Shown here: positions 57,511 to 60,500 of the stretch, piece by piece
Numbering within the stretch: the first letter of the stretch is position 1
How the letters are laid out: each line of letters opens with the position of its first letter
NCBI GenBank assembly: GCA_022829145.1
Contig: CM040765.1
Coordinates: forward strand, 10,832,292-10,896,291
Direction of reading: 5' to 3'
Length of the DNA stretch: 64,000 nt
Origin: Albula goreensis
Lineage: Eukaryota; Chordata; Actinopteri; Albuliformes; Albulidae
Made by a program: the position numbers and the translations under genes
The notes under the pieces: generated by a model
Told to the model about the DNA's origin: nothing
The model's input: only the letters and a program-made list of their open reading frames with translations
Database searches by the model: none

Positions 57511-60500
57511 ATGAAGGCGTCTGGAACAGTACGTACAATTCGATAAAAATATTGTTTTCCCGCTTATAATATTGTTAATTAAGTTCCCTTTTGTGTAACA
57601 TAAGCAAGTGAACAGTTTGTAAAAGTGAGCTATTGGAGTATTTTTTGTTCTCAGGGAGTACTGAAAGCTTTTTTTCCTTGAACTCATTCTCATGGCAACA
57701 TGGCGTCTAAATTTGCGTTGCTGAACCATGTGCTGTAGGGAGGCCTGTTGAAAAAGCCGGATTGAGGCAACATATTTATCACATCTTCAAGGGAAATTAG
57801 ACTGGATGCGTATCCTTATTGATTTCAGTAGATAATCTACTTTAATATAATAATCCTGGAGGAGATATCTAGATATAGTTTACTGATGCTTTACGACAGC
57901 ACGCACTGGTTGAAGCGTGTTAGCTAACTGGCTAACGCGAACCTTGTTGATATATTCAACGCATTTATTCTGTTTGCAGTTCTACGTCAAGTTGTATCTG
58001 AACATGAATGACCGCGATACATTGGTTAAATAGAATTTGGTAGTTCGTTTGCCTAACTGCTATTGTGACTACGAATCGTTACCTGCAGTAGGTTGACATA
58101 CTATATGAGCTTTGGATGGCGAATTCGGCTATAGAAACGTTTATGAAGTGTATTGTTAGTCATTTAGCTTGTTTTAGCAATGAATTCAGTGTGCACACAA
58201 AACCCAAAGGTCATAATTAACATCAATAATATGATCTTGTCTGGTGTGCAGATATGAAGGGAGTACCTTGTCGCCTTTCAGATCGCTCCCGTGCATCTGA
58301 AAGTGAATTCAAGGTTCTACAGTTCTATCACACATGTTGTGTTCCCTTCTCTTATGGTTTTACACTAATTTTGAATTGTTTGCCAGCACTACAGACAAGT
58401 GACAAAGATGCATTTTGATTGTTGACCCTTGCTGTCTGCCCTCAGCTTAGGGAGTACAAAGTTGTTGGGCGCCTCCTGCCCTCTGCGAAGAACCCTAATC
58501 CTCCCCTGTACCGCATGAGGATCTTTGCTCCCAACCATGTGGTGGCCAAGTCCCGCTTCTGGTACTTCGTCTCCCAGCTGAGGAAGATGAAGAAGGCCTC
58601 TGGAGAGACCGTCTACTGCGGACTGGTAGGTTGGAGGGTCTGGACGGCAGGAACTTGGTTAATGCTGTCACTGACACCACATCGTTTATTTTAGTGTAGC
58701 TAAAGCTTAGCGCATGGACATTGGCATTCTATGCGTTTTATGTTGGAAGCTTATTTTTATTCAAAAAGAATGCACGCAAACTCAAAAGTACATTATTGAA
58801 CATATCAACTTCCTTGTCATTTATGCACCAAATAAAAACCTTGCATAAGATGCTGTCCTAATGGAAGTGAAATCAAAGTTCAGCACAGCTTGTGGATATC
58901 CCCTCACCACTACTTACCACACAGTTAAACAGAAGAAATGCTCTGCACATAGTGCATAATCTTACTCCTAGATGACCTTTGATTGTGTTCATCACTATTC
59001 AGGTTTACCTAAAATGTATCTATTTTGTTACATCTGTCACTTCACATGTATCCAAATACAGTATTAAAGGAATTTCAGAAGATCAAACGCTACAATGGGT
59101 ACAGCTTGCTTAAAGCATTGAAAATGTAATCTTTAATGAAACGATTAAGTTCTTTTACCTACAGTTGTTAGAAGTCTCCCACAGGTTTGTTTAGAACTTG
59201 GCTTGTATTTTGAGTGCGTTTCTGTCTCACCAGGTGTATGAGAAGTCTCCCTTGAAGGTGAAGAACTTCGGCATCTGGCTGCGCTATGACTCCCGCAGCG
59301 GCACCCACAACATGTACAGGGAGTACCGGGACCTGACCACCTCCGGTGCCGTCACCCAGTGCTGTAAGTGCTTCAGTCTGGGCCAAAGCATGGCTGTATG
59401 CCCATACACAAATAGGGTCCTGATCAAGGATTTCTTAGAATGCTAAAGTCATTGCCAGCTGATTGGCCTGTAATGTTGAAGTGAATCCATCCAAAAGAAA
59501 GTTGCTTGTATGCAGATGACTGTACTTTTAATTGCAATTAGTACTTCATGAAGGATAATTCAATATCGATGTGAATTTGGGACCTTCATTCAGTTTGGAG
59601 TTGTGAGGGAAAAACCATGAAGTATTTTTAAATGCTACCCAGGAAGTGTGATTAAGTACAGAGTTTAGATCTTGTGTGATTGCTTAGTGCAGCCATGGTG
59701 TCTCAAAGGTAAATTGTGATGTTTCCCTCTGACCAACTCATGACACCATGACCAACTGAAATGTGTGGAGTGGAAGATGTAATGGCCGTTGGTCTGAACT
59801 TTTTATTCATAAATGCTGTTTTTTGAAACAAAGTTGAGGTGTCTAGTCAGATTGACTATAAGCCCTGTTGAGAAAGTGGGAAACTGAACAGTTTATGTTA
59901 AAGGTGTTTTAACTGGGATTTGCAAAAGCTTTGGGATGCAGGAGCTAGTAAAATTCATTATGCACTGATTGTTGGCTCATTTAGATGGATGTTATTTGAG
60001 ACGGTTGCTACTGATAACATATCGGTCGTCCACGTTTCCTAATGCAGCCATTGATTTCCTCATAAGTAATTGAGTACTTGAAATGGACGGCTGCATTCAC
60101 AGGAGTCGTCTGTCTTGAAATCACTTTCCGGATCTTCCGCTATAACAATTCACCTGACCTTAGAACTGACTGTGCATTTTGCCATATCACAGGAACACTT
60201 CCAAGAGAGTTTGACTGACATGTTTCAATTTTCATTGACTGCACACAAACCCAAAGAACATTGTCAAACCTGTGTAATGTTCTTGTCATGTGTGCAGAAA
60301 TTAAAAAGCACCTTGTCGCCTTTCATAAGCTGCTGCTGTGCAAATGGAAGTGAAATCAAGGTTCAATACATTTTTGTATATAATGAGTCTCGTCCATACA
60401 AACTCCGCACAAACTTTGTCCCAGAAGTTGACTGCATATGCCTATCACTCAAGTTTGTGATATATTAAACTACATTACAAGTAGTTCAGTATATCATCTG

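Follow-up and report, generated by a model that had tools for sequence, protein, structure and literature searches.

The window analysed here, a whole stretch of DNA of 64,000 nucleotides, carries on its plus strand the complete gene rpl18a (eL20; 57511..61296), which is recognised by an open spliced frame, by a match in PDB and by matches in its own assembly. Its five coding exons (57511-57528, 58446-58625, 59234-59363, 60768-60877 and 61204-61296, all on the plus strand) join into an uninterrupted frame of 176 amino acids, and introns 1 to 4, with lengths of 917, 608, 1404 and 326 nt, are all of the GT..AG type. The top PDB match of the protein is the 60S L18a chain 7oya_S1 (E 3.5e-116), from an entry which we take to be the zebrafish ribosome, and a search of the own 932-Mb assembly with this protein gave four matches, which are exons 2-5 of the same gene. 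In human, RPL18A is the host of SNORA68.

As the sequence-only reading of this DNA had described, introns 1, 2 and 3 of rpl18a each contain one copy of a snoRNA sequence, called here A, B and C; all three are oriented in the same way. That reading had also guessed SNORA68 as the family and had pointed to a covariance search as one way to check it, naming the lack of a covariance hit among the results that would speak against it. This search, now run with all 4227 Rfam families over the whole window, agrees with the guess and did produce hits: two matches reached the curated cut-offs, both of them to SNORA68 (RF00263, cut-off 43 bits), and both extend over the full length of the model (positions 1-133 of 133). 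Copy A (58190..58325, plus strand, intron 1) scores 69.9 bits over 58190-58324 with E 3e-12, and copy C (60238..60372, plus strand, intron 3), the best family match, scores 84.4 bits over 60238-60371 with E 1e-15. We describe both as intact, according to these matches and to folds beyond those of shuffled sequences. A search of the own assembly with RF00263 returned copies A and C only, among the best 42 of 55639 first-look candidates.

Copy B (58769..58889, plus strand, intron 2) is a decayed SNORA68 pseudogene by its alignment to C and by a match in its own genome. Rfam did not match it to SNORA68 at any E up to 10, even with a 301-base query, and it illustrates in this way how decay can hide a copy from a covariance scan. 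Aligned locally to C, copy B scores 70, against a maximum of 32 among 1000 Markov shuffles of intron 2; aligned to A it scores only 27, a value that 6 of 1000 shuffles reached or exceeded. With copy C as a DNA query, the own 932-Mb assembly yielded three matches among the best candidates scored, and these are C itself, A (74%, E 1.4e-10) and B (70%, E 1.6e-6). Judged by such alignments, copy B is a real relative of the SNORA68 copies, and we file it as a decayed relative and not as a member of the family.

A fourth copy was sought between 57500 and 61300 with a model built from A, B and C and with the filters off. The scan returned 20 matches up to E 10, and those below E 0.5 on the sense strand are A, B and C alone; their own scores under this model prove nothing, because it was built from all three. 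The minus strand gave two weak matches (18.9 and 15.2 bits), lying over the 5' hairpins of C and A, which we took as mirror images. A SNORD11-like match on the minus strand over copy B (25.3 bits, cut-off 55) was read as chance, and matches to snoR41, hveRNA, MIR1878, MIR862_2 and GlsR7, with scores far under the respective cut-offs, were likewise put aside.

When folded alone, copies A and C are both more stable than their shuffled versions (z -4.60 for A and -4.93 for C, with 0 of 200 shuffles equally stable in either case), and the hairpin-hinge-hairpin-tail architecture is present in the MFE and in the centroid structures of both. The fold of copy B is no better than that of its shuffles (z +0.36; 124 of 200 equally stable). 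From the 36 base pairs of the family model, 34 are formed in A, 32 in C and 17 in B. In a tiling of rpl18a from 57530 by 236 windows of 135 nt, the two with the lowest z overlap C, and ranks 4-8 overlap A.

Rank 3 of these 236 windows belongs to a separate element of intron 3. This strongly folding element occupies 59998-60104, about 135 nt upstream of copy C, and its hairpin at 60036-60104 has a z of -5.31, with 0 of 200 shuffles equally stable. No Rfam family reached its cut-off on it, the only match being MIR862_2 with 20.9 bits (cut-off 71). An ACA stands about 14 nt past an internal loop of the element, but the hinge that joins it to a small hairpin before it seems to leave too little room for an H box.

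The hinges of A and C contain H-box-like ANANNA motifs, read from the sequence as ATATGA in A (58252..58257, plus strand) and AAATTA in C (60298..60303, plus strand); the motif is a weak one, with 4004 matches within the window. An ACA box is expected at about 14-16 nt from the 3' pocket. Copy A has its ACA box (58319..58321, plus strand) 15 nt past the start of the right strand of the 3' pocket, which lies inside this range. The terminal box of copy C (60366..60370, plus strand) can be read either as AUA at 15 nt (60366-60368) or as ACA at 17 nt (60368-60370), and the Rfam alignment places the ACA of SNORA68 on the AUA. That C has AUA at the usual 15 nt, with the ACA shifted to 17 nt, we count against the presence of two working copies.

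The left strand of the 3' pocket is GUCGC in both intact copies, at 58270..58274 in A and at 60315..60319 in C (both on the plus strand), and pairs with GCGAC of 28S; the right strand starts in both with UGAA. In copy B a deletion of 8 nt removes four of the five positions of this left strand, and with 17 of 36 pairs left the copy looks just as the sequence-only reading had it, deprived of a pocket strand and of several pairs. The right strand of its 3' pocket is that of C, and an ACA is retained at 17 nt. In the 5' pocket, A and C show no difference over the 9 model positions of the left strand and differ at 2 of 7 in the right strand, where both of them depart from the Rfam consensus.

Copies A and C differ overall at 33 of 129 positions, and these differences are not evenly spread. 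They were put into a contrast that has these two sequences as its whole basis, with deletions counted, one column empty in all three copies left out and every position taken as independent. The lower stems and pockets then contain 5 differences in 58 positions and the remainder 30 in 73 (Fisher p 2.3e-5); if the remainder is limited to the upper stems and loops, it contains 23 in 57 (p 7e-5). The contrast becomes weaker, with 12 differences in 74 positions and 23 in 57 (p 0.003), once the hinge (differing at 3 of 9 positions) and the tail (4 of 7) are moved to the functional class. For the pair B and C the same bias is not significant, with 13 of 58 positions differing in the lower stems and pockets and 26 of 73 elsewhere (p 0.12). 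It is from this comparison that A and C look constrained and B not clearly so.

The lower stems of A and C share 7 of 8 and 6 of 7 identical pairs, so that their earlier description as near-identical is appropriate. The 5' upper stem forms 10 of 10 pairs in A and 9 of 10 in C, where 4 of 10 are identical and 2 have both bases replaced and are standard in either copy; the 3' upper stem forms 11 of 11 pairs in A and 9 of 11 in C, with 7 of 11 identical and 1 changed on both sides. The earlier statement that the upper stems are different and still pair is accurate for the 5' one and fits the 3' one less. Two-sided compensation between A and C is modest and concerns 3 of 36 pairs. As to the third copy, B aligned to C shares the base of C, and not that of A, at 25 of 28 positions and that of A at 3, a count partly biased, since this alignment favours C; in the three-way MAFFT alignment, which is not built on C alone, B sides with C at 26 of 31 positions and with A at 5. 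By these counts copy B is nearer to C than to A.

To find a target for the guide pockets we used a stretch of 521 nt from this genome, derived from LSU (locus L012, with a match to LSU_rRNA_eukarya), which is a dispersed fragment and not a working or complete rRNA. The best site in this fragment for the 3' pockets of both A and C is GUUCA[U]AGCGACG, with a pairing of 6+5 bp for A and of 6+4 bp for C. Shuffled strands of copy C reach at least 10 bp anywhere in the 521-nt stretch in 434 of 20000 trials, and 10 bp at that very U in 11 of 20000. According to a study of dyskerin (PMC4092089), U4393 and U4390 of human 28S are modified through U68 and E3. The substrate printed there contains GUUCAUAGCGACG, in which the two U are not marked in the passage cited, and we take U4390 and U4393 to be the second and the third U of GUUCAUAGCGACG, because these are the only two U three bases apart. 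Position 4393 of human 28S is also listed as a pseudouridine with a value of 97, taken as percent (PMC6182160). By complementarity, the 3' pockets of A and C match the site equivalent to human 28S U4393, which is assigned to U68. In the same LSU fragment the 5' pocket of A or C finds no pairing beyond 3+3 bp, and the strands of copy B, together with the bases before the deletion, prefer other sites (6+3 bp at best) and not that of U4393.

A 17-base 28S pattern has seven exact matches in LSU-like fragments (L010-L016, on contigs C1, C2, C3, C6, C15, C18 and C19) and revealed no intact rDNA unit in the own assembly. L010 shares 197-265 bp, at 89-94% identity, with each of the other six stretches, and an Rfam check covered L010 and L012, two of the seven. 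Their appearance is that of rRNA pieces scattered over the genome, with a repeat as a possible carrier.

Taking these observations together, we consider it very probable that A and C are intron-encoded SNORA68 (U68) box H/ACA genes and that B is a pseudogene of the same family, all of which came about by intragenic duplication; this judgement concerns the identity and the history of the copies. That both A and C are working genes, as far as their sequences tell, we hold to be likely, with somewhat less assurance. The earlier reading, of an intron-to-intron duplication followed by the keeping of two copies and the loss of one, gains support from covariance models, genome search, folding and the pattern of substitutions. 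One SNORA68 copy would have been duplicated into neighbouring introns of rpl18a, selection would have kept the lower stems and guide pockets in A and C, and copy B, the one nearer to C, would have lost its 3' guide pocket and decayed. The order and the route of these duplications are what we infer, and three unrooted copies fix neither their direction, nor their number, nor the intron that was occupied first. Copies A and C would come out of the rpl18a introns after splicing and bind the dyskerin complex, and their 3' pockets may direct pseudouridylation at the equivalent of human 28S U4393.

It would be logical to ask if only one of the intact copies is working, either C, as the best family match, or A, and if the other is a redundant or dying duplicate in which decay is not yet visible. 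Copy B shows that decay is possible in rpl18a introns, and the terminal box of C is shifted or reads AUA; moreover, according to published models about one third of annotated vertebrate snoRNAs are expressed, and 17 of 79 human hosts of multiple snoRNAs mix expressed and silent ones (PMC10234308). We still find such a situation rather unlikely, because A and C, for all their 33 differences, both retain the left strand of the 3' pocket, the lower stems and the folds, and a copy unconstrained for that long would be expected to resemble B. That B itself continues to work as an RNA, in an altered structure or for some other purpose, could be argued from its C-like right strand of the 3' pocket and from its ACA at 17 nt; it is made very improbable by a fold no better than that of shuffles, by the small number of family pairs, by the deletion in the pocket strand and by the absence of an Rfam SNORA68 match. 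As for chance similarity or a dispersed repeat in place of a snoRNA, the Rfam E values of 1e-15 and 3e-12 and the three matches in the own assembly refute it and leave it a practically negligible probability.

The route of copying deserves a separate consideration. Similarity between the copies ends at the ends of the snoRNA, and the best of six flank comparisons were those between the upstream flanks of A and C (8 of 200 shuffles as good) and of B and C (25 of 200). Shared flanks as a sign of segmental duplication were rejected, there being no convincing flank similarity between the copies. The same abrupt ends would suit a retroposition of the snoRNA, of snoRT type, into its own host gene in place of a DNA duplication, and human H/ACA copies have been proposed to arise by retroposition (PMC8178906). 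Against it, no A-tail or target-site duplication was seen by eye in the 50-nt flanks, no copies are found elsewhere among the own-assembly matches, and at such an age unconstrained flanks would have decayed regardless of the route, so that we regard retroposition as unlikely and keep to intragenic duplication of DNA.

The rpl18a copies can be set beside known systems. With SNORA68/U68 (RF00263) they share the full-length covariance match, the two-hairpin fold, the 3' pocket that fits the 28S U4393 site and the rpl18a host; they are unlike it in that two intact copies and one decayed copy stand in successive introns of one gene, and unlike the RF00263 consensus in the right strand of the 5' pocket. 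Duplication of snoRNAs within a gene is a mechanism already known in vertebrates. In chicken, almost all snoRNA paralogues are said to arise by intragenic duplication, with guide regions kept and the rest variable; intron 2 of RPL18A hosts an orphan H/ACA RNA of 136 nt, and NAP1L4 is listed with two isoforms of one H/ACA RNA, in its introns 7 and 9 (PMC2653536). The case described here is similar in having paralogues with conserved guide regions in neighbouring introns of one host, and differs in having three copies, one of them visibly a pseudogene, in a probable fish. The name snoRNA pseudogenes was proposed for degenerate and unexpressed copies (PMC10234308); a degenerate copy next to intact ones is common to both situations, whereas the copies here are known from their sequence only.

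Other reports touch on copy number and on the family itself. In human, few H/ACA families keep all of their expressed members in a single host gene (PMC8178906). Among C/D snoRNAs, placental mammals were reported to tend towards lower copy numbers, with SNORD87 having four genes in zebrafish and one in human, and a reply printed with that paper disputes the copy-number trend (PMC3349704). SNORA68 is listed in rhesus by PMC2832892, which also cites copies in different introns of one gene, and the consulted portion of PMC11005140, on SNORA68 in breast cancer, names neither the host gene nor the 28S target. Within the titles and abstract openings of the literature on SNORA68/RPL18A, on zebrafish snoRNA/Rpl18a and, for 40 of 59 entries, on SNORA68 in general, most subscription journals and the Ensembl and Rfam fish annotations being outside this scope, no triplication of SNORA68 in rpl18a was described.

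We may even ask if A and C are not merely redundant and have divided or changed a second target, as part of a repeated intron-to-intron expansion of H/ACA RNAs in fish. The thought comes from the right strands of the 5' pocket, which differ at 2 of 7 positions between A and C and from the Rfam consensus, and we give it little credence; if true, it would set intron-to-intron copying in fish apart from the retroposition that has been suggested for H/ACA families in human. With SNORA68 genes very probably duplicated inside one gene, the rpl18a trio makes a clean single-gene case of the birth and death of guide RNAs, with two seemingly selected copies and one without its guide pocket. Because its host and its probable 28S target are known, the trio lends itself to asking, in a simple test, if dose or redundancy is what preserves duplicate H/ACA genes.
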